Origin: a virus
Length of the DNA: 27,190 nucleotides
Reading direction: 5' to 3' (one strand)
Virus record (IMG/VR): IMGVR_UViG_3300032242_003702
Coordinates: 1 to 27,190 of that record
Under the pieces are notes generated by a model. It was not told where the DNA came from. It ran no database searches and saw nothing but the letters and a program-made list of their open reading frames with translations. Shown piece by piece: positions 1,207 through 17,573 of the stretch; within the stretch, counting starts at the first letter, position 1; every line of letters begins with the position of its first letter. The position numbers and the translations under genes were made by a program.

Positions 1207-1758
1207 TTATTCAGTCAGGAAAAGATCCAGGTCGGCGTGGAGTTTCTCCACCGGGCCGTTGTTGAGCAGGATCCGGTCAAAGGTTATCGGTTGTTTTTCG
1301 GAGGAATGAGCCTCCACCGGCGCGATCCCAGGGCGCTTCACCGCGATGATCGTGAACCCTGCCTGCTTGAGAGCCTCGGCTTCATTCTCAAAACGGAGGT
1401 CATCCACCACGACCGAATGGCCTTCCTGCAAATGGCGCGAAACCTTGGAGAGCAAGATCTTCCGCCAGATGTCGGTAGCGACCACATCCCGACCCCATTC
1501 CGTACCTAATGTTTGCATCAGATAGCGGGGAGATTTCCCCCCGACCAGATCGCTGGTGGTTTCCTTGAGGTTTCCATCGACCATTTCCACGGCTTCCATG
1601 AGACCGGCTCCGGCCTCGATGAGGAGGCAACGGACCATCCGTTTGATCGGTGCCGCAAAGCGAACCCGACGGAAATGATGCTTGGCGACGAGGTGGTCGG
1701 CTGCGGTTGATTTACCGCTGCCAGCTAAACCGCAGAAAGCGATGAGCTTGGGGGCCAT
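1207..1758 (-). CDS. Deoxynucleoside monophosphate kinase-like protein
   Basis: 183 residues. The P-loop is at residues 10-17 (GLAGSGKS), followed by an adenylate/thymidylate-kinase-type core. The stretch RYLMQTLGTEWGRDVVATDI and the later VVVDDLRFENEAEAL, then a strand with IIAVKRPG, match the phage dNMP kinase family (T4 gene 1 relatives). These enzymes phosphorylate dNMPs with ATP to supply dNTP synthesis. A TTGACAC element and TAGGGG lie just before its ATG. It sits after the lysis genes and before the metallophosphoesterase, an unusual place for an early-type metabolic enzyme. The kinase family call is strong; nucleotide specificity cannot be read. Confidence 0.88.
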   Translation of the reverse strand: MAPKLIAFCGLAGSGKSTAADHLVAKHHFRRVRFAAPIKRMVRCLLIEAGAGLMEAVEMVDGNLKETTSDLVGGKSPRYLMQTLGTEWGRDVVATDIWRKILLSKVSRHLQEGHSVVVDDLRFENEAEALKQAGFTIIAVKRPGIAPVEAHSSEKQPITFDRILLNNGPVEKLHADLDLFLTE

Positions 1759-5951: not shown

Positions 5952-8477
5952 TTACTGGGGGTTAAAATTTGTCGGGTAATTAAGCGACCGAGTCACGGTG
6001 AGTGGGAAATTCTGGCTGCGGCGGATGAGCACGCGGGGGCCAACGCCGGTTTGATTGATTTCCTGCCATTTCACTTCGCCAATCAGGGTGATGGTCTCGG
6101 ACACTCCCGATTGAAACGAACCAAGGCAAGAAGACAACGCGGTTCCGGTGATCGGAAAATAGAAAAGGTAGGAAAAATAGCCCGATGATCCGAGTTGCGT
6201 AGAAACCGCTGGAATGAATTGGTTGCAAAAAAACACCACTGAACCACTAGCGGAATCAAGGAACGTGCAAGAGATGGAAGTGACTTGGGGATCCGAAAAA
6301 CTGTTCCCCGAATGGAAAGCAACTTGAAAAAAGAAATCATCACTTTCCTTAACAGCTCCCAAAGCAACCGACGGCTGAATCGCTGGAGTTGCCTGGGGAA
6401 GAACAGCAGACCACTGCGCAGTTCCGTGTGATGATTGATCGATCCAAAGAGTTTGCATCGGGATATCCAACGCATTTGCAGCAATCGCATAAGGGTAACC
6501 AACATAAGAAATTCCTCCATCGGCCATAAGACCGGCCAAAGGCACGGCACACGGATAATGGACGACTGCCCTGCTATGTAACCCACCATGAAATTGAGGA
6601 TCAATCGAAGCTCCATTCCAGAACTCGATGGAATTGCAAATAATTCCGTAGAATGTTGGATCACCGGCCTCATTGTGCCATACGATTGGAATAATGGTGC
6701 CAGTTGAGTATTTACCCACAATCACTTGATCGTAATGAAAAGATGTTGTCGTGGCTTCAAAAGCACCGGAAATCTGATTGTAAGAACCAGCAATTTGAAT
6801 AGCGCCGTCTATGAAAATATTATCTGAATTTGCGGGGAGGCTGGTTGCTGGGTTGGTGTGCGTGCTGTCTAACCACCAATTTGCTAAAGTTAGCGGAGAA
6901 CCGTCTCCAGTGGCGTTATTGTAATAAAACGGTTGTCCAACGATGACCATTTCATCGGCAATTTGGCCGGAGTAATTGGGATCCGTGATGGTCGCGACGA
7001 CGTTGTAAGTGCCCGAGTTCGATGGAATTGTGGATGATCCGTTGTAAGTGATCCTTGTTGCAAGACCACTGGGGCTTGTCGTGGCAATCAGGCCATGGGG
7101 TGATTCATCATAAGTAATCAAACGGGCACCAGAAAGCGATATTGTGGCCGGTGCGGGGGAAATAAATAAAACCGCATTTTTAGAACCTGCATGATCGGTG
7201 TCATTAATCACTACTGAAACCGAATAGGTTCCGGCATCAGTAGGAACAGTTAAGGAACCATTGTAAGTGACGGTTGTGCTAAAACCGGTTGGATATGTTG
7301 TTATCGTTACGGGTCGCGGTTGACCCGTGTAACTTTGGTTGAGGTTTTCAATAGAAATTCCAATCGAAATTTTGCCCACTGTGAACGAAGTGGTGACTTC
7401 GCTGGCGGCGCCGTACTGGGTATTCCCCGATTGATTGGCGGCTAGGACAACAGCACCTTCTGACCCGGTCAGCGTGATCGTATTGCCTGAAATGGTCGCA
7501 GGGCCACTTTTAACCGTAACAGCTACGGTCAGACCGCTTGAAGCGGTAGGAAGTGCGATCGTGAACGCAGCGGTTCCAGGCGTCTTGGATGCTATCGTGG
7601 CAAACGGGGTAATCGTATGGGACAGCTTGCCAACTGTGAACGAAGTGGTGACTTCGCTGGCGGCGGCATAATCAACATTACCAGACTGATTGGCTGCGAG
7701 GACGACCGTTCCCTCCGTGCCAGCAAGGGTAATCGTGTTACCACTGATCGTTGCAGGGCCACTCTTGACTGTAACAGCTACGTTCAGGCCGCTTGATGCA
7801 GTAGGAGGCGTGATTGAAAAAGATGAAGCTCCAGGCGTTTTTGCCGAAATTGAAGTAAAGCTGGAAATCGTTTGGGTAAGAAATGTAGACCAAGAAAAAC
7901 TATTTGGCGGATTAGGAGCCGCAGCACCTCCTGTTTCTGAGTAAAAATTAAAATCTGATACTCTTGCCAAGTAACTACTCGGGGTTGGAACTAGCCCGGA
8001 ACCAGAACCTAGATTTGTTGAAACTCTTGAAGTAGTGTTAATACTTCCAGACCCCTGATAAGTTCCACTATAATAATATAAAAGTCCTCTTACTCCAAGA
8101 GACAAGTTTGAAGAGTTAGAAACATTATCTATGCAAGATACAAAACTGCGTCCAATGACGGATGCAATATTAGAAGGCGTATAAAATAAAATGTTTGCAT
8201 TCCTTTTTCTAATAGAACAATAAGCACCCGTTGCACTTAAATTTTGATAATTTACTATAAATATATTGTATCCAGCATTTAGATTTAGGGTAAGAGTTCC
8301 AGTGAAAGAGTTACTGACATATCCATTTGTTCCAAAAGAACTGCCGTTTAATGAAAATTCAAAGACGTCATCAGCAGTTACATCGAAAATATATGATCCA
8401 GATGCAGGAGCATATATATATGTTGGGAATAAACAGGAGAATAATGTATTTCCTGTAAATGTTACATTTACACTCAT
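5952..8477 (-). CDS. Large modular tail adhesin (Ig-like, MBG-like repeats)
   Basis: 841 residues. Residues 1 to about 200 are an Asn/Ser/Tyr-rich beta domain encoded by AT-rich DNA. Two near-identical 85-residue Ig-like repeats follow at about 203-285 and 286-370 (SGLxVAVTVKSGPATISGNT, AASEVTTSFTVGK). Two MBG-like repeats are at about 371-540 (YNGSLTVPTDAGTYSVSV, YNGSSTIPSNSGTYNVVA). An NWW module lies at about 545-690, and a C-terminal domain (690-841) is shared with the next gene. This is the make-up of an extracellular adhesin or tail fibre that contacts the host surface. The last domain may anchor it, since it is retained separately downstream. Start ATG has a TAAGG five bases or fewer upstream. 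Confidence 0.88.
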   Translation of the reverse strand: MSVNVTFTGNTLFSCLFPTYIYAPASGSYIFDVTADDVFEFSLNGSSFGTNGYVSNSFTGTLTLNLNAGYNIFIVNYQNLSATGAYCSIRKRNANILFYTPSNIASVIGRSFVSCIDNVSNSSNLSLGVRGLLYYYSGTYQGSGSINTTSRVSTNLGSGSGLVPTPSSYLARVSDFNFYSETGGAAAPNPPNSFSWSTFLTQTISSFTSISAKTPGASSFSITPPTASSGLNVAVTVKSGPATISGNTITLAGTEGTVVLAANQSGNVDYAAASEVTTSFTVGKLSHTITPFATIASKTPGTAAFTIALPTASSGLTVAVTVKSGPATISGNTITLTGSEGAVVLAANQSGNTQYGAASEVTTSFTVGKISIGISIENLNQSYTGQPRPVTITTYPTGFSTTVTYNGSLTVPTDAGTYSVSVVINDTDHAGSKNAVLFISPAPATISLSGARLITYDESPHGLIATTSPSGLATRITYNGSSTIPSNSGTYNVVATITDPNYSGQIADEMVIVGQPFYYNNATGDGSPLTLANWWLDSTHTNPATSLPANSDNIFIDGAIQIAGSYNQISGAFEATTTSFHYDQVIVGKYSTGTIIPIVWHNEAGDPTFYGIICNSIEFWNGASIDPQFHGGLHSRAVVHYPCAVPLAGLMADGGISYVGYPYAIAANALDIPMQTLWIDQSSHGTAQWSAVLPQATPAIQPSVALGAVKESDDFFFQVAFHSGNSFSDPQVTSISCTFLDSASGSVVFFCNQFIPAVSTQLGSSGYFSYLFYFPITGTALSSCLGSFQSGVSETITLIGEVKWQEINQTGVGPRVLIRRSQNFPLTVTRSLNYPTNFNPQ
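7378..7665 (-). repeat. Direct repeat within adhesin Ig-like modules
   Basis: A 33-base identical sequence occurs at 7378-7410 and 7633-7665, 255 bases (85 codons) apart. The stretch between differs more. It marks the ends of the two Ig-like modules and points to a recent in-frame tandem duplication or ongoing gene conversion. Confidence 0.85.
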
Positions 8478-8538: not shown

Positions 8539-10713
8539 TTACTGGACTGATGCTTGCGCCGCCGATGCGCCGGATTTTGCAGTCAGGCTAGGCACCAAGG
8601 CATAACTGATCCAGGCTCGCGGATCAGTTTGAGAGGATTCCGTGGATAAACCTATCAATCGGCAACGAATCAGGAAATCCGCCGTCGAGGGAGCTGCCGC
8701 ATTGTTGCCTGTAGTGATTCCATATTTTTGTTGATCAAGATGGAGTGTATCGGTGTTCCCAACTAACAACCGAGAAATTGAAATGCCGAAACTATGGGTG
8801 ATGAATTCTTCGGTCATCACCAACGGTTGAACAAAAACTGGGGATCCCGTGTTCCACGAAACAGAAAGCCCTCCTGTCTCGGTGTAATTGCCAATTTCAA
8901 CGACAAGATTGTAACTGACGCCACAGGTGGATTTGAGAGCCTGCAATGCAACCCCCCAATCAATTTTGAGTTTCCGACCAAGCGCCAAAATCGATGAATT
9001 CATCGGCACGCTCCACAATTCACGGTCGAAATTGGAGGAAACCGCAAGCGATGGCGGTCGATTCGGCAACGCCGAAGCATCGTATCCCGTAGATCCACTT
9101 TTTGCTGCCCCAAAGTATCCAATTAGTTCGGAAACAATCGAAAGTGGGTAAACAACGGCTTGAGCAGAATTTGCAGTGACACCTATGCCATTAGTTGTTG
9201 GCAAAATGGCCTGAAGTTGGGCAACCGTTTGGTTAAGTTGTGAAATATGCTCCGATAAACCAATGACTTGTGATTCTGAAATCGTCAATCCTTCGACAAA
9301 TGCACTCGTAGGACCAGCAGAAGAAACAACCCCAACAATCGACCCATTGGCCGGAGCCGTTGGGAAAACCACCATCAAAGAATTATTTGAAATGGAATGT
9401 GCGACATAATCACTGCCATTGATAAGAATGCGAGCACCGGTGATCGTGGTATCAATGAAGGTTGAATTTTCCCGTAAAGTCAGATGAACATTTTGGGTGT
9501 TCAACCCATGGGTGATGGTGAATTTATTGGCCGTGCCGTTTCCCAGGGAAAGAGTGTAGAACTGCTGACCGGTGATGACTTGGGTCGGGTTGTAAGGGAT
9601 GTAACTCGTCGGGCCGGGCGGCTGCGCCCAATTAATAGGCGTTGCGGCTTCGAGTCCCGACCAGTTAATCGGCCTCTGGATCGAGACAGGAACGCGACAG
9701 AGCGTGACCGTCTGCCAATCGGTGGCCGTGGCGGGGTCGGCATTGTCGGGAACAATATCGGCTACGATCTCCAGATAAAAATCCTTGAGCGTGTCCGCCG
9801 CCCTAAGTGCCTCATAAGCAGAACTCGTGTTAAGATCGAGCGAAACGGTCGGGATGGTATTCGGGGCTTGCAAGATTGCAACCTGAAGCAATGGCTGGGT
9901 AAACCCCATGAATGAAGACCCGTCGAACGCAATTTGAGCCGTCGAGGTTTTCGGGTTGGTGACCGTCACGCTCTGGCCGTACTGCGTAAAAACCGCATTG
10001 ATTGCTTCTTGAATCTGGGTCGATCCATCCTGGACCGAAAGACTTTTTGTGGCGTTCCCGTTATACGACAACGTGAAAGTTCCCGTAAAGTTTGGAGGAA
10101 TATAGAGGCTCTGGATTGTGGCCGTGGGATGCAGCAAACCCTCCGTGGCCGTCTGGATCATGGTGACCGTGGGGGCCGGAGGAACCATGGGAGTAAAAAC
10201 ATTGCTTGAAGCAATCGGGGCCTGAAGCAATGTCACTTCGGTCTGATAGAGATCTTCTAAGTGGGTTTGTCTCACCCGGATCAGGCAGATCGGGTCGAGG
10301 TCATTGTGAGCCGCGACCACGGTGTGAGCCGCATTATCCGAAAAAGTGATCACAAAGCTCGTCCCGTCGATGACCACGGAAGAAGTGACCCCTCCGGTCA
10401 ATACCGCGTCAATCGCACTTTTTAAGTTTGAGGCGGATGCCGTAAAAGGAAGCGTCGCCGTGACATGAGTGTCCACCCGAAGGGCAAACTTTCCACCCGT
10501 TGGCGGGGCATCTGATCTGCCGATTGAGGCGCGGAGTGACCGCAGATTGGGAGTGATCTGGGTCGCCGTGCCGTTGATGACCTCAGAGAAATTCAACCCA
10601 ATATCAACCTGCTCTCCTGCAGTCAGCGTGGGTAAAGAAAACGTCGTCCCACCGACCTTGGTGGAAAGAATGCGTTTGGTCAGGTCGGCGACAAGGAAAA
10701 AGGATGTGCTCAT
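8539..10713 (-). CDS. Large tail fibre-like protein
   Basis: 724 residues from the ATG at 10713 (MSTSFFLVADLTKR); an upstream TTG frame runs through the leader and is rejected. Two internal copies of a beta module are visible at about 73-165 and 207-284. Each has a GG/TGTF..L start, a helix of the AIDAVLT/AINAVFT type, and an ending LLQAP or ILQAP. Residues about 380-465 form a small fibre domain (FTITHGLNTQNVHLTLRE...VVFPTAPANG). A heptad-like segment at 478-505 (ISESQVIGLSEHISQLNQTV) suggests a trimeric coiled coil, before a C-terminal region of about 220 residues. This order fits a trimeric tail fibre or tip protein. Receptor is unknown. Confidence 0.82.
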   Translation of the reverse strand: MSTSFFLVADLTKRILSTKVGGTTFSLPTLTAGEQVDIGLNFSEVINGTATQITPNLRSLRASIGRSDAPPTGGKFALRVDTHVTATLPFTASASNLKSAIDAVLTGGVTSSVVIDGTSFVITFSDNAAHTVVAAHNDLDPICLIRVRQTHLEDLYQTEVTLLQAPIASSNVFTPMVPPAPTVTMIQTATEGLLHPTATIQSLYIPPNFTGTFTLSYNGNATKSLSVQDGSTQIQEAINAVFTQYGQSVTVTNPKTSTAQIAFDGSSFMGFTQPLLQVAILQAPNTIPTVSLDLNTSSAYEALRAADTLKDFYLEIVADIVPDNADPATATDWQTVTLCRVPVSIQRPINWSGLEAATPINWAQPPGPTSYIPYNPTQVITGQQFYTLSLGNGTANKFTITHGLNTQNVHLTLRENSTFIDTTITGARILINGSDYVAHSISNNSLMVVFPTAPANGSIVGVVSSAGPTSAFVEGLTISESQVIGLSEHISQLNQTVAQLQAILPTTNGIGVTANSAQAVVYPLSIVSELIGYFGAAKSGSTGYDASALPNRPPSLAVSSNFDRELWSVPMNSSILALGRKLKIDWGVALQALKSTCGVSYNLVVEIGNYTETGGLSVSWNTGSPVFVQPLVMTEEFITHSFGISISRLLVGNTDTLHLDQQKYGITTGNNAAAPSTADFLIRCRLIGLSTESSQTDPRAWISYALVPSLTAKSGASAAQASVQ

Positions 10714-10764
10714 GGGATAAATAAGGGGAGCAGAACGCAATCCCCTACCCATCACCCATGTCAA
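10714..10764 (-). promoter_or_regulatory. TTGACAT element and hairpin leader before fibre gene
   Basis: TTGACA at 10759-10764 followed by GGGTGATGGG and TAGGGG. Here the distance to the chosen ATG is 45 bases, longer than at the other copies. The leader also contains an AGGGG/CCCCT pair able to form a small hairpin. Confidence 0.45.
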
Positions 10765-10779
10765 ATAAGCTTCTGGGAT

Positions 10780-10974
10780 TTAGGATTGCCCGTCACCCGA
10801 ATCAAGAGGTGCAGGGAGTCCAAAAAACTTGGGATTGAATGGCACCACAAACCAAGGGTAGTCGGGGTCGAGCGCGGGAGCCTTTTTGAGTTGGGAATTG
10901 GCGGCGGCGGCTCGGAGCTTTTTGACCTTGTCGAGCCCTAGCGTGCCAAAAATGTTTTGCGAGGTAGTGGACAT
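10780..10974 (-). CDS. Small tail-region protein of unknown function
   Basis: 64 residues from the ATG at 10974, chosen because a strong AAAGGAGG lies 4 bases upstream; the longer frame to 11049 is inside the neighbour. The N-terminus MSTTSQNIFGTLGLDKVKKL is followed by a helix, then a Pro/Phe-rich end (YPWFVVPFNPKFFGLPAPLD). The excellent Shine-Dalgarno is unusual in this window and suggests high or independent expression. No family recognised. Confidence 0.78.
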   Translation of the reverse strand: MSTTSQNIFGTLGLDKVKKLRAAAANSQLKKAPALDPDYPWFVVPFNPKFFGLPAPLDSGDGQS

Positions 10975-10984
10975 GGATCCTCCT

Positions 10985-11944
10985 TTAAATGCTCCAGAAC
11001 AGCCCCGAGAGCGAATAAGTCTGAGCCGCAGCAGCATGAAGCTGGGCAAAGGCGTCGTTTAATTGGTTCTGGATGGTATTTCCAATGGCATCAGCAAATG
11101 GCAAACCAGTCTGAATAACAATACTGTCTTGCACCCCGGATTTAACCGGCGCAACTCTCTGAGGAGCGTGGCAGAGATTATAAAAAAGAGCGTGTTGCAA
11201 AAAACAAATCCAACTATCGTCAGGATCTGATCCCTCCTCAAGTCCCGGCGGTGACAAAAAATAAAGCGTCGCTACCAGCAATTCGTCCGAAGGGATATCT
11301 TCTGTATTGGAAATATACCTTTCCTCGGGGGTCATCTGGGCCGAGCTTTTCCAAAACGGGGTTTGTAAAATACGGGCTCGCGTCCCCAATCGAATTAGCG
11401 CTTTATCATTTACCACGGGAGCGTAGTTGACCTGCAGATTTCCGCTGTCTGCTTGAGTATAAAAAACCGTGCCATTAATTGCTGCACGCGCGACGGAAAG
11501 GTAAATATCAACGCTCTGAAGGCATTTCCTGTTCGGAGAATTCATGCCACCCGCAAGATCCCCGTTGGCATCGATTGAAAAAGAAGCATCGACCGCAGCT
11601 CCCAGTTCTTTGAAAAACACGGGAATCGGACCATCCTGTTCAATAGGGGTTGTCCTCTTGGCAAATTTTTCCACCATGAACTCGGGTGCATCGAGCAAAG
11701 GAATTCCGTTCACCGTGGCATCGATCCCATTGACAAAGCCCGGCAAGACGGAAATCATCCATTTTTTCACATTGGCATCCCATCGAGCCGATGTTCTCCA
11801 TGGATGGGAAAGAATGTTTCCCTGTTCCAAAGCGTTGATCGAATATCCCGATGCCGACGCCCGGAGTTCGCAAAAGGATCCTGGGGCGGGGCGTGCCGCT
11901 GCCAGCCGGTCGATCAGATCATTAACGGCACGGGCCGGAATCAT
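10985..11944 (-). CDS. Tail-tip protein, paralogue of upstream neighbour
   Basis: 319 residues. The first 110 residues parallel the upstream protein (11941-12531). LIDRLAAARPAPG matches LRDAVAALRPQSG, SHPWR matches DHPFR, and SVLPGFVNGIDATVNGIPL matches TVSPGLVNGIEPTIGGVPI. It then carries an extra region of about 200 residues with a Cys pair (WICFLQHALFYNLCHAP) and a helical end (AQLHAAAAQTYSLSGLFWSI). Its ATG overlaps the upstream TGA as ATGA, consistent with balanced synthesis of two related tail-tip subunits. Exact function unknown. Confidence 0.82.
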   Translation of the reverse strand: MIPARAVNDLIDRLAAARPAPGSFCELRASASGYSINALEQGNILSHPWRTSARWDANVKKWMISVLPGFVNGIDATVNGIPLLDAPEFMVEKFAKRTTPIEQDGPIPVFFKELGAAVDASFSIDANGDLAGGMNSPNRKCLQSVDIYLSVARAAINGTVFYTQADSGNLQVNYAPVVNDKALIRLGTRARILQTPFWKSSAQMTPEERYISNTEDIPSDELLVATLYFLSPPGLEEGSDPDDSWICFLQHALFYNLCHAPQRVAPVKSGVQDSIVIQTGLPFADAIGNTIQNQLNDAFAQLHAAAAQTYSLSGLFWSI

Positions 11945-12531
11945 GCTGCCCAGAAAAAATGCACCCCCGTTCCATTGCTAGGCTTGAGGAACTGGTAGGC
12001 GAGATTGTGATAGGTGATCTGATGAATCACGGGCGTCCCGCTGGTGTTCTTAATCACTGCCAGCGGGTGGCGGGCCATACTTGTCTCAAGGGTGGTGGGA
12101 AAGGTCGCCGTCTGCAGGATCTTTGCCTCAAGGATTGTGGTTCCATTCCCACCGATCTCGACCTCCAGGACAATCCAACTCCTGCTCTCGGCATCATAAT
12201 CTGACCCAAGGGTCAGTTTTGGAGCACCTCCGACCAACATTTTTCCCTGGGCGGAAACGCCCGAGATCGGAACACCACCGATCGTCGGCTCGATGCCGTT
12301 CACAAGTCCGGGGCTCACGGTGATCGATTTCCCCGACTGAAGAACTCGGAACGGATGATCCCAGTTGAGGCCGGCAGGGACGAAACTCACGGAAAATCCA
12401 TTCGGCCCTTGAGTGATCCGGGTATTGGCCCCCGACTGGGGACGCAGCGCGGCGACGGCATCACGAAGCTGGTTCCAGAGCTTGGCTGTGAAAGGATCAC
12501 CCGGGGCGACCTTGGGAGGGAGAGGGATCAT
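11941..12531 (-). CDS. Tail-tip protein with PGxVNG motif
   Basis: 196 residues from the ATG at 12531 (MIPLPPKVAPGDPFTAKLWN). The frame is open further up, but that part overlaps the preceding gene and is rejected. An N-terminal helix (AKLWNQLRDAVAALRP) precedes a beta-rich body containing TVSPGLVNGIEPTIGGVPI. The N-terminal half matches the downstream gene at 10985-11944. It lies downstream of the tape measure gene, where tail-tip and hub proteins are normally encoded. No enzymatic motif seen. Confidence 0.8.
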   Translation of the reverse strand: MIPLPPKVAPGDPFTAKLWNQLRDAVAALRPQSGANTRITQGPNGFSVSFVPAGLNWDHPFRVLQSGKSITVSPGLVNGIEPTIGGVPISGVSAQGKMLVGGAPKLTLGSDYDAESRSWIVLEVEIGGNGTTILEAKILQTATFPTTLETSMARHPLAVIKNTSGTPVIHQITYHNLAYQFLKPSNGTGVHFFWAA

Positions 12532-12547
12532 TGGAAATGATGGATCG

Positions 12548-13246
12548 TCAGGTTGTCGGTTTGTAGAGGATTGAATTCCAGCCACCGGCCCCCGAAAGCT
12601 GCCATTGCTCGCTGACCTCGAAGACGCCTGCCCGGGAAGTGATTTTCGGAGCAAGCTTGAGCCAGTTGCGGTTGGGAAGATCGGGAATTGCGATTAAGGT
12701 GTCGCCCGGCAGCTCGGAAATCATCCCGATATTATCAAAGATTCCGTCGATTTCCCCCAAATCCTTGACCGTCTGGTTCCGCCGGAAAATGCAACCAAGC
12801 GACAAGTAACTTGTGACCCCGTACATCGGGTTATCCCCTCCCCCAGCATTTTGGTTTGCGGCGGTCTGGATGTCGGAAAGGAAACTGGAATCGGGAAGGT
12901 TGATTGAGAATTCCTTGGTCGTCTGATTGTACCCGTACAAAGTGGCAATCGAATCAGGCTGCCCGAGGCCAAAATTGGGATGCGACTGGATCGGTTCCTC
13001 CTTCATGGAGAAATCGAGCGTCTCCTGGATCATCCCATGGGCATCCGTCGCCCGAAAATCACCCACAATGAACGCGCCACTCTCATCGACCGAGAAACTG
13101 GAATCCTCGTAAGCCCTGGCAAAAGTTTCTGCAGAGGAGAAATCAAGATTTCCCGGGGTGATCGGAAAAACATAGCGCTCGGACGAGGTAAAAAGCCCCG
13201 TGCGATCAAGCGTGAAACTGCCGCCAACTGTCTGAAAAGTGTTCAT
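12548..13246 (-). CDS. Tail-tip protein, second copy of tandem pair
   Basis: 232 residues, clearly paralogous to the upstream gene (13255-13956). ETLDFSMKEEPIQSHPNF matches EELDFSMSQNPVQSSPQF, NPMYGVTSYLS matches SPVYGTTDFLS, LKLAPKITSRAGVFEVSEQW matches the equivalent LYLAPKVSTRGNAFQIVQEW, and both carry LSGAGGW near the end. Copies differ most at the N-terminus. A position just after the tape measure suggests distal tail proteins, but the fold is not recognised. Confidence 0.85.
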   Translation of the reverse strand: MNTFQTVGGSFTLDRTGLFTSSERYVFPITPGNLDFSSAETFARAYEDSSFSVDESGAFIVGDFRATDAHGMIQETLDFSMKEEPIQSHPNFGLGQPDSIATLYGYNQTTKEFSINLPDSSFLSDIQTAANQNAGGGDNPMYGVTSYLSLGCIFRRNQTVKDLGEIDGIFDNIGMISELPGDTLIAIPDLPNRNWLKLAPKITSRAGVFEVSEQWQLSGAGGWNSILYKPTT

Positions 13247-13254
13247 GAGTTGCG

Positions 13255-13956
13255 TTAGTTGGCTTGAGTCTCAAGCATCATTAGGGCGTCGTGGCCGTAG
13301 ATTGCCTCCAGCCAGCCACCGGCCCCGGAGAGCATCCATTCCTGCACAATCTGGAACGCGTTGCCACGGGTTGAGACCTTCGGGGCCAAGTAAAGCCAGG
13401 TGCGGTCATCGTTGGCTGCCGGATCCTCCAGATTTTTAAACGGAGGGTCGCCGATGATCGTGCCGATATCCTCAAAAATCGTTGCAGGGATGGCTCTGAC
13501 GGTCTTGGTCTGGCGATAGACGCAAGTGTACGAAAGGAAATCAGTTGTCCCATAGACCGGAGACGAACTGCCGTCGGAGAGGTTCTGTGGGAAGGCTTTC
13601 TGGGCCGTATCCCACCCGTACTGGGTCACCATGTCCGCAAACTGAGGAGAACTTTGCACCGGGTTCTGACTCATGGAGAAATCCAGCTCCTCAACCAAGC
13701 CTATGTCGTTTCCCTCATCAATACTTCCCGAGACTTTCTCGTAGTCGAACTGGGCAATCCAATTCCCCGCCTCATCTCCCTGCGCCTGGGCACCCACAAA
13801 GAGCGCCCTTTCATAATCGGAATCTACCTCGTTGTAGGATGCTGTGACCGCCGCCGTGTACGAGCTGAAAAAAAGACGACGCGAGATCTTCTCCAGACCC
13901 GTCTTGTCGATGGATCGCTTCTCCCCCAGCAGGTTTGTTCCGTCAGGTAACGGCAT
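13255..13956 (-). CDS. Tail-tip protein, first copy of tandem pair
   Basis: 233 residues, first gene after the tape measure, preceded by AAAGGATAA at a good ribosome-binding distance. Key features are LDFSMSQNPVQSSPQF at about 90-105, YGWDTAQKAFPQNL, a Cys-containing strand YTCVYRQTKTV, and LAPKVSTRG...LSGAGGW near the C-terminus. All are repeated in the downstream paralogue. In lambda-like phages this position holds distal tail and hub-forming proteins. The tandem pair may form a hetero-oligomeric ring; this is inference. Confidence 0.85.
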   Translation of the reverse strand: MPLPDGTNLLGEKRSIDKTGLEKISRRLFFSSYTAAVTASYNEVDSDYERALFVGAQAQGDEAGNWIAQFDYEKVSGSIDEGNDIGLVEELDFSMSQNPVQSSPQFADMVTQYGWDTAQKAFPQNLSDGSSSPVYGTTDFLSYTCVYRQTKTVRAIPATIFEDIGTIIGDPPFKNLEDPAANDDRTWLYLAPKVSTRGNAFQIVQEWMLSGAGGWLEAIYGHDALMMLETQAN

Positions 13957-15513: not shown

Positions 15514-16230
15514 TCATTTCATTGGGAGGCCGGAGGCCGCCATCTGCTTTGCCTCAAGGTTTTTCAGGATCTTGACCATGTTCTTGATCTGGTTGTTCAC
15601 CGCGTAATCGACGCGGCGTTGCATGTCCTTCACATGGCCCGCAAAATTGACTTCGTTGCTGGCACGGAAAGCGATCCCCTTGGCCCCGACGCTCAGGGTC
15701 ATGGTGCCGGGGGCGGCATGCCGCGAGATCCAGGCAGGGACGCGGATCTTGCCGAGCTTGTTGGCCGCAGGAAGCCACCCACTGGCAAGGAATCCGACCA
15801 TCTTTTTCTTTTGCTGGCGGTAAGCATTCAGAATGGAGGATTCAATGAGGAATCGTTCGTCTTTTGTTCCCTTGTTCAATCTCCTTTCCACCCGTCCGGT
15901 CGATGCTTGGCGAAAGGAACGGTGAACGGATGCCGGAGATCCAGACGTTGGAGATCTTCTGCCAGCCGATCGCATGATCTTGGCCAGATCGTTGAGTACG
16001 GCTTGCTCCCCCCTCTTCTTGGAATCGCTTCCCGTGGTCATCTCTCCCTTGCCATCATTGGCCGCACTATCCCATCCGCTCGGAGGAGTGACGGAGATGA
16101 CCGATCGCAGGATACCGCGTGCTTGAGTCTTCATCGCCTCCGTCCGGGAGCGCTTGGAATCCCGCATGTAAGTCTCAAATGCCTTTAGGAACTTGTCCGT
16201 GTTGCGGGGTTTGATCGTTACAAAGGCCAT
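15514..16230 (-). CDS. Putative phage morphogenesis/tail completion-like protein
   Basis: 238 residues, very basic. It has an N-terminal helical region (KFLKAFETYMRDSKRSRTEA), a PPSGWDSAAND segment, an Arg/Lys/Ser-rich middle, and a beta-containing C-terminal half ending in a helix with HVKDMQRRVDYAVNNQIKNM. This make-up resembles the minor tail Z/virion-morphogenesis group that joins or completes tails. It lies between the chaperone and the tape measure, not at the neck, so the assignment is tentative. Its ATG overlaps the end of the frameshift product by 13 bases. Confidence 0.7.
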   Translation of the reverse strand: MAFVTIKPRNTDKFLKAFETYMRDSKRSRTEAMKTQARGILRSVISVTPPSGWDSAANDGKGEMTTGSDSKKRGEQAVLNDLAKIMRSAGRRSPTSGSPASVHRSFRQASTGRVERRLNKGTKDERFLIESSILNAYRQQKKKMVGFLASGWLPAANKLGKIRVPAWISRHAAPGTMTLSVGAKGIAFRASNEVNFAGHVKDMQRRVDYAVNNQIKNMVKILKNLEAKQMAASGLPMK

Positions 16231-16888
16231 GAGATTTCCGGGGTGTCTTCTTCTTCTGAAGGAATGTCAAAGTAAGAAGAGAGAGCATTCAGTTCCTCTA
16301 ATTGGGCCTCCTTCGAGGGGCTCGGATCCACCGTCCAGACGTCATGACTCCGCCAGCAGGCGTGCAGGTATTGAAGCAGACGCGCCAAAGGCATCCGCAG
16401 GATCTGGCGTTCAGGCCACCCCGTTTCCTTCGCAATCGTAAAGACCAGCGAGGCGGTGCGGGATGGCTCCCTCAGTTTCCCGGGGGGGTTTCCTTATTTG
16501 ATCCGCTACCGGGCTTTTCCTGGACATCGACCGTGGCCTCCGCAATCCCTGCCACGATTTGCTCAATCACCGAGCGAAGACCAACCAGTCCGGTGACCGG
16601 AATCTTGCGGGCAAAGCCTCTGACGTTTTCTTTCCATGCCTCTGGGTCATCGCTTTTGAATTTCACCAAGTCGGGATCCGTCCCATGGATATACAGGAAC
16701 TCGGTCATCTGACGGATCTGATCCTGAATCGTGAGCTTGGCCGTGGGGTCGTAAAGAAATGTCAGACCCGCATCGATCACGATCAACTGCGTTTCCAAAG
16801 AGAAACGGCTGAAGGTGATGCCGTTCCAGACAATCGGGGTGTCACGGAATGCCTTGTTCAAGACGGAGGAGGAAGATTTTTTGCTCAT
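16218..16888 (-). CDS. Tail assembly chaperone, -1 frameshift GT-type fusion
   Basis: The G-type frame (16472-16888) is joined through a seven-C tract at 16482-16488 to a stop-free -1 frame that runs to the TAA at 16218-16220. This gives a protein of about 223 residues. The extension reads EPSRTASLVFTIAKETGWPE, then LRMPLARLLQYLHACWRS and an acidic Ser-rich end. Its composition and position match the T domain of lambda GpGT and its many analogues. It has no plausible start of its own in the right place. In known systems the short form coats the tape measure and the T part recruits the tail tube protein. Frameshift efficiency cannot be read from sequence. Confidence 0.85.
16472..16888 (-). CDS. 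Tail assembly chaperone, unshifted G-type product
   Basis: 138 residues ending KETPPGN before TGA, two codons after the slippery tract. The body is mixed (PIVWNGITFSRFSLETQLIV, TIQDQIRQMTEFLYIHGTDP) with a helical centre and a hydrophobic segment VGLRSVIEQIVAGIAEAT. Its location between the tail tube genes and the tape measure, plus the frameshift arrangement, identify it as the G-type chaperone even though sequence similarity in this family is low. Confidence 0.85.
   Translation of the reverse strand: MSKKSSSSVLNKAFRDTPIVWNGITFSRFSLETQLIVIDAGLTFLYDPTAKLTIQDQIRQMTEFLYIHGTDPDLVKFKSDDPEAWKENVRGFARKIPVTGLVGLRSVIEQIVAGIAEATVDVQEKPGSGSNKETPPGN
16476..16490 (-). other. Slippery sequence for -1 ribosomal frameshift
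   Basis: On the minus strand GAA ACC CCC CCG GGA AAC TGA contains C-CCC-CCG, an X-XXY-YYZ type heptamer, immediately before the G-frame stop. Slipping back one base re-pairs both tRNAs on C triplets. An AAGGA lies a few bases upstream and a GGGA/TCCC 4-bp hairpin lies shortly downstream; either could stimulate shifting but both are weak. Confidence 0.8.
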
Positions 16889-17055: not shown

Positions 17056-17526
17056 TCAAAAGATCTCCAGCATCTTTTTCCCTTTCTCAGTCGGGACGAG
17101 CTTGCCATCCGGCCCCCTCGTCGTGGCAATGTAGGCGCTGCGACCGCTCTTCTGGATGTGAAGCTGCGGCGGATTCTCCCGGATCGCGTCGCGGAGTTTG
17201 CCGAGCTTCTCCATGAAAGTGCGAAGGTAGGTGATCGGGTGATCAAGGTTTGCGGAAAGCCAGGCACGGTCATTCCACCGGCGGAGCAGTTCATTGGTGG
17301 AGATCGTCTCTCCCTTGAAGTCCTCAAAGGTGATCTTCCGATCCTCGGCCATCCAGACCACTGTCCTGGTCGGCTTCCCTTCCTCGGTGCCGATGGCGTT
17401 CATGTAGCCTCCCTCCTTGACCAATTCCCCACCACAAGTGAGGAGCGCGGCGATCGCCTGCGTGTTGGGACTCTTCAAGGGATCCTGATCGTCCTTGAGG
17501 TAATGGTAAGTGCTTCCTGTTTTCAT
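17056..17526 (-). CDS. Tail-region protein of unknown function
   Basis: 156 residues from ATG 17526 (MKTGSTYHYLKDDQDPLKSP); a GTG seven codons upstream is open but less likely. The first half is mixed with a short TRTVVWMAEDRKITFEDF strand segment. The second half is helical (NELLRRWNDRAWLSANLDHP, FMEKLGKLRDAI) and ends in a Lys-rich segment with GRSAYIATTRGPDGKLVPTE, which looks like a small beta hairpin. Its place between the tail tube and the chaperone suggests a tail assembly or structural role. Confidence 0.75.
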   Translation of the reverse strand: MKTGSTYHYLKDDQDPLKSPNTQAIAALLTCGGELVKEGGYMNAIGTEEGKPTRTVVWMAEDRKITFEDFKGETISTNELLRRWNDRAWLSANLDHPITYLRTFMEKLGKLRDAIRENPPQLHIQKSGRSAYIATTRGPDGKLVPTEKGKKMLEIF

Positions 17527-17573
17527 AAATTCATTCTCAACTGTCACCGATCAACGAATCGGTCAGGTCGTAG

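Follow-up and report, generated by a model that had tools for sequence, protein, structure and literature searches.

The question raised by this locus is how a viral reading frame that lacks a start codon of its own comes to be expressed. The DNA analyzed, here called the window, is the whole 27,190-nucleotide stretch of IMG/VR virus record IMGVR_UViG_3300032242_003702, and the minus strand is the coding strand for all of the relevant genes. The 3' end of the gene that we call G reads GAA ACC CCC CCG GGA AAC TGA, with its stop at 16474-16472 and an in-frame C_CCC_CCG (16487-16481) two codons ahead of the stop. The -1 frame from this seven-C tract (GGG AAA CTG AGG ...) is open for 87 codons, up to a TAA at 16220-16218, and runs 13 bases into the next gene. 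Counted from the CTG at 16475, this frame (T) has no ATG, GTG or TTG before an ATG at residue 28. A first-pass annotation of the window had described the same features, all of which were confirmed on the sequence, and had read them as a programmed -1 frameshift joining a G-type to a T-type domain in the layout of lambda. It had placed the slip on the all-C heptamer, with a fusion peptide PP-GKLREPSR (hyphens mark junctions). The features of the locus are collected in Table 1.

Table 1. Features of the G-T locus and its neighbours in the window.
Feature	Coordinates	Strand	Evidence
G, candidate tail assembly chaperone, 0-frame product, 138 aa	16472..16888	-	ORF; homologs in 62 loci; AF2 model and structural matches
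SD-like AAGGA, ends 9 nt before the heptamer	16491..16495	-	GGAG/AGGA/AAGGA at the same place in most clusters
Seven-C tract, at most a secondary shift site	16482..16488	-	Not conserved
Slippery heptamer G_GGA_AAC, most likely shift site	16475..16481	-	X_XXA_AAN at the homologous place in 62/62 loci, 33/33 clusters
Stem-loop beginning 7 nt downstream of the heptamer, its outer stem formed by GCCAUCCCG/CGGGGUGGC (16467-16459 with 16423-16415)	16415..16467	-	Folding energy; synonymous-codon null
T domain, -1 frame, 85 codons + TAA; predicted to be reached only as GT (223 aa)	16218..16475	-	Purifying selection; homologs in 62 loci and in Akkermansia phage Moulinsart
Next gene, 238 aa, overlaps the end of T by 13 bases (ATG at 16230)	15514..16230	-	ORF
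Tape-measure protein, 510 aa	13977..15509	-	Matches in PHROGs to tail length tape measure, the best named hit at 1e-11

The head module of the window is lambda-like, with a gpA-type terminase, a lambda-family portal and an S49 protease. G and T lie upstream of the tape-measure gene with one gene in between; Pfam and PHROG scans gave no confident family match for this intervening gene, and no tail-tube gene was confidently identified. Several other genes were noted in passing. Two adjacent paralogs downstream of the tape-measure gene (12548-13246 and 13255-13956, minus strand) are 31% identical and have in common a C-terminal LSGAGGW..IY motif, and the gene right after T in Akkermansia phage Moulinsart ends similarly. 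The gene upstream of G (17056-17547, minus strand) is without a family match; by eye, it resembles gene 12510-12959 of Moulinsart. A deoxynucleotide monophosphate kinase (Pfam DNMK) is encoded at 1207-1758 (minus strand), and another is annotated in Verrucomicrobia phage P8625. The 841-aa product of 5952-8477 (minus strand) has two MBG_3 domain matches and is possibly a tail fibre or adhesin.

Relatives of the locus were found by searches with G, T and the T alignment. This yielded 62 loci, made up of the window, 59 virus contigs and 2 contigs from Verrucomicrobiota metagenome-assembled genomes (MAGs), which form 33 clusters below 90% identity. One MAG is assigned to Spartobacteria (T 98% identical), the other to Chthoniobacter flavus, and because of this binning the hosts are probably Chthoniobacterales. 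T was at -1 relative to G in 62/62 loci, taken from many assemblies. Within the clade of the window, the T frame had a dN/dS of 0-0.16, indicating purifying selection, and substitutions at its codon positions 1/2/3 numbered 138/85/483. pN was below pS in the T frame and above pS in both shifted frames. The most conserved block of T is AKETGWPE. The programmed -1 frameshift of the first-pass annotation is supported by the common frame relation and by the selection on T. The lambda-type layout likewise held, with the G ORF extended by an open startless -1 frame and, in all 62 loci, a conserved heptamer near the end of G.

The proposed slip site, in contrast, did not stand. C_CCC_CCG was found in the window only, and of the two things that the first-pass annotation had named for comparison among relatives, the -1 frame is conserved and the C tract is not. 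Downstream of C_CCC_CCG, the G frame contains two more overlapping heptamers of the XXXYYYZ type, C_CCG_GGA (16484-16478) and G_GGA_AAC (16481-16475); only G_GGA_AAC, which directly precedes the G stop, is conserved. Every locus has an in-frame X_XXA_AAN where T homology starts (CCCAAAC in 39, GGGAAAC in 19, CCCAAAA in 2 and AAAAAAC in 2). The closest relatives of the window, L016 and L075, read GCC CCG GGA AAC TGA, and the group of L059 and L062-L074 has CCG GGA AAC only. In several relatives C_CCC_CCA overlaps the conserved site, starting one codon earlier, so that slips ahead of this site may account for a small part of the shifting. Over the 33 clusters, the slip codon pairs were CCA-AAC (23), GGA-AAC (8), CCA-AAA (1) and AAA-AAC (1); the residues encoded therefore vary (P-N, G-N, K-N, P-K) and slipperiness is kept. 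At the slip pair, Pro is CCA in 24/24 clusters and Gly is GGA in 8/8, whereas in the remainder of these genes CCA makes up 17% of the Pro codons and GGA 18% of the Gly codons; the naive binomial significance of this bias is overstated because the clusters share ancestry. As the probable shift site G_GGA_AAC sits directly before the G stop, the GT junction predicted for the window is ETPPGN-LREPSR, in place of the one first proposed.

The region after the heptamer was analyzed by comparing the folding energy of its 60 nt with that of recodings that keep the T protein. This revealed that the native sequences are more stable, with a mean z of -2.63 over the 33 clusters and a fraction at or below 0.05 in 28 of them; control windows in the same genes gave mean z values of -0.03 to -0.27. 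For the window itself, the stem-loop has a minimum free energy of -25.6 kcal/mol (z -2.13, fraction 0.023). Across loci the hairpin starts 5-7 nt after the heptamer, and L062, L063 and L069 show only a weak signal for it. Three stem registers occur in different clades; all of them pair the GCC that begins 7 nt downstream of the heptamer, with 3' arms at three different places. In 18 clusters of the sister groups, which share one pairing register, compensatory changes were seen: 17 cells were changed on both sides of the stem, versus 6.8 in shuffled data (0/500), and sliding the stem partner abolished pairing. In the clade of the window the stem pairs at 92%, a conservation too high to show covariation. 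The hairpin is under selection, as T is as coding sequence.

When pairing with the anti-SD was scored in 8-nt stretches, the mean energy reached a minimum of about -4.9 kcal/mol in stretches that begin 18-12 nt upstream of the heptamer. This minimum is due to AAGGA, GGAG or AGGAG elements whose ends lie 8-9 nt from the first base of the heptamer, and over all clusters it differs from synonymous shuffles with a z of -3.0. The SD-like element of the window itself is no stronger than its shuffles, and the element is absent or weak in six loci (L056, L059, L060, L062, L063 and L069). Neither this element, nor the hairpin, nor the two further heptamers figured in the first-pass annotation.

The identity of the proteins was approached through structure and families. 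Members of G and T had no match in Pfam or among the PHROG families, and T had no significant hhalign match to lambda T (P 0.09). The AF2 model of G had a pLDDT of 74.5. Foldseek found no significant match for it in the PDB; by VIA re-alignment the best PDB match was the HK97 tail assembly chaperone 2ob9, which is weak (Z 3.0, 81 residues, 12% identity). Among BFVD structures, several matches of the model are named tail assembly chaperone, at E values above 0.001. The place upstream of the tape-measure gene, the G-T layout, and the BFVD and 2ob9 matches agree with a tail assembly chaperone, although none is strong alone.

Deposited phages of Verrucomicrobiota provide a comparison. A tblastn search of INPHARED with G returned no match. 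The best terminase match among deposited phages was that of Akkermansia phage Moulinsart (ON453896), at 39% identity. In the G-T region of this phage (10632-11332), the gene at 10632-11090 ends in A_AAA_AAC TAG, with AAAAAAC at 11081-11087. Its product aligns with G of the window (hhalign probability 95.7%), and tblastn finds a T homolog in the -1 frame (E 2e-4). The hairpin is present there as well (synonymous-null z -2.44, fraction 0.004), and nine Moulinsart-related virus contigs likewise have AAAAAAC followed by TAG, with a hairpin. In the Moulinsart record the two parts are annotated as separate hypothetical proteins, with no fusion and with T starting at an internal ATG. No -1 site like that of the window was found in P8625, the other verrucomicrobial siphophage checked. 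At the C-terminal end of the product of its gene gp18 (11917-12537), hhalign gives a weak match to T without any change of frame, and gp18 may be a naturally fused single chaperone that needs no frameshift.

G and GT thus seem to be made by a ribosomal slip in Verrucomicrobiota phages. From these comparisons we infer slippage, its efficiency and the chaperone role, and we put at roughly 0.9 the probability that the locus encodes a tail assembly chaperone in two forms, G and GT, by a -1 shift at G_GGA_AAC with stimulators. Most ribosomes would read G and stop at the TGA. In a minority, the P- and A-site tRNAs would stand on GGA and AAC of the heptamer, hindered by the stem-loop 7 nt downstream and assisted by the SD-like AAGGA 9 nt upstream, and would re-pair on GGG and AAA. 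The -1 frame would then be read for 85 codons to give GT (...ETPPGN-LREPSR...). By analogy with lambda, both forms would bind the tape-measure protein, and tail-tube subunits would be recruited through the T domain.

The original alternative of a slip on C_CCC_CCG, giving ...TPP-GKLREPSR, is favoured in that this heptamer lies in frame and several relatives carry the overlapping C_CCC_CCA just upstream of the conserved site; the protein would also have the same length with a slip on C_CCC_CCG as with one on G_GGA_AAC. We nevertheless consider it unlikely, as the tract is peculiar to the window and T is still at -1 in relatives that have no such heptamer (L016, L056, L059 and L062-L075). In addition, A-site CCN codons are on average less shift-prone than AAN codons in E. 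coli (PMC4066793). The same run of C could act on RNA polymerase, so that a fraction of the mRNAs would fuse G and T in frame; such transcriptional slippage is already known as another way to the same end (PMC5009743). No long homopolymer is common to the relatives, and the conserved tRNA re-pairing heptamer, the hairpin and the SD-like element are positioned as for ribosomal -1 shifting, which makes slippage of the polymerase highly improbable. That homopolymers are prone to sequencing or assembly error might suggest a single gene split artificially. This is refuted by the relatives, and we regard its probability as negligible: the frame relation is identical across the 62 loci from many assemblies, which span 33 divergent clusters and for the most part lack a C7 run, and it recurs in Moulinsart.

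Independent initiation is a different kind of explanation, in which T would be a separate protein with its own start or made by reinitiation after the G stop. The internal ATG chosen for T in the Moulinsart record would fit such a protein, as would the CTG that overlaps the G stop in the window, with SD-like sequence upstream. This reading is disfavoured, because no standard start precedes residue 28 and because the CTG, the first T codon of the window, is replaced in some relatives by CTA, CTC or ATA. Starting internally would also remove AKETGWPE and would leave the heptamer and its codon bias unexplained; we judge separate initiation very unlikely, if slightly less so than polymerase slippage. 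Several points count against the preferred explanation, the -1 shift at G_GGA_AAC. In E. coli, GGGAAAC and AAAAAAC shift with low efficiency, though IS elements use them (PMC4066793). G and T lack Pfam and PHROG matches, the 2ob9 match is weak and that of T to lambda T is not significant. The stem in the clade of the window shows no covariation, and in some loci the SD-like element is absent or weak or the hairpin signal is weak.

The mechanism is known and widespread; what is new here is the corrected slip site and the conserved stimulatory elements. As in lambda G/GT, which shifts on G_GGA_AAG, the putative slip is on X_XXA_AAN near the end of G, T is a C-terminal extension with no start of its own, and the pair lies upstream of the tape-measure gene. 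Unlike in lambda, the A-site codon is AAC rather than AAG, an extra gene separates T from the tape measure, and there is no detectable sequence link. A host tRNA-Lys(CUU) was considered as an explanation of AAC over AAG and was rejected, only tRNA-Lys(UUU) having been found in two incomplete MAGs. G_GGA_AAC and A_AAA_AAC have already been reported in the G-T genes of haloarchaeal viruses (PMC5009743), the corresponding gene with the same heptamers in viruses of archaeal hosts. The -1 cassettes of E. coli dnaX and IS911 resemble the locus in having a slippery heptamer and a downstream stem-loop at similar spacings, with an SD-like element upstream in dnaX (PMC5009743); they differ in gene and purpose, and dnaX shifts on A_AAA_AAG at about 50%. 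In known -1 cassettes the SD spacing is 9-14 nt and 3' structures begin 6-9 nt after the site (PMC5009743); the spacings here (SD 8-9 nt, hairpin 5-7 nt) are close to these, given that counting conventions differ.

In lambda, G and GT act on the tape measure, T recruits the tube protein and the ratio of the two forms is critical (PMC5009743). The G-T shift in lambda and certain other tailed phages seemingly occurs without stimulatory signals (PMC5009743). By the test used here, the lambda GGGAAAG site has no such hairpin (z +0.97), lambda being a single comparison, and a limited literature search found no published stimulator at the tail-chaperone site of the phages studied here. We find it an evenly balanced proposition that frameshifting is stimulator-driven, a weak X_XXA_AAC being boosted by the conserved hairpin and, in most members, the SD-like element. 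RNA structure, and not the slippery site alone, would in that case determine the GT:G ratio, which would perhaps be higher than in lambda or regulated, and the hairpin would have been rebuilt in three pairing registers as T diverged. The conserved stem-loop, with the SD-like element of most members, would allow a direct test of whether RNA structure tunes the chaperone ratio. For annotation, an X_XXA_AAN that ends a gene upstream of the tape measure would point to a missed fusion gene in Verrucomicrobiota phages, Moulinsart included. The locus thereby offers a first handle on a probable chaperone family that Pfam and PHROGs miss.
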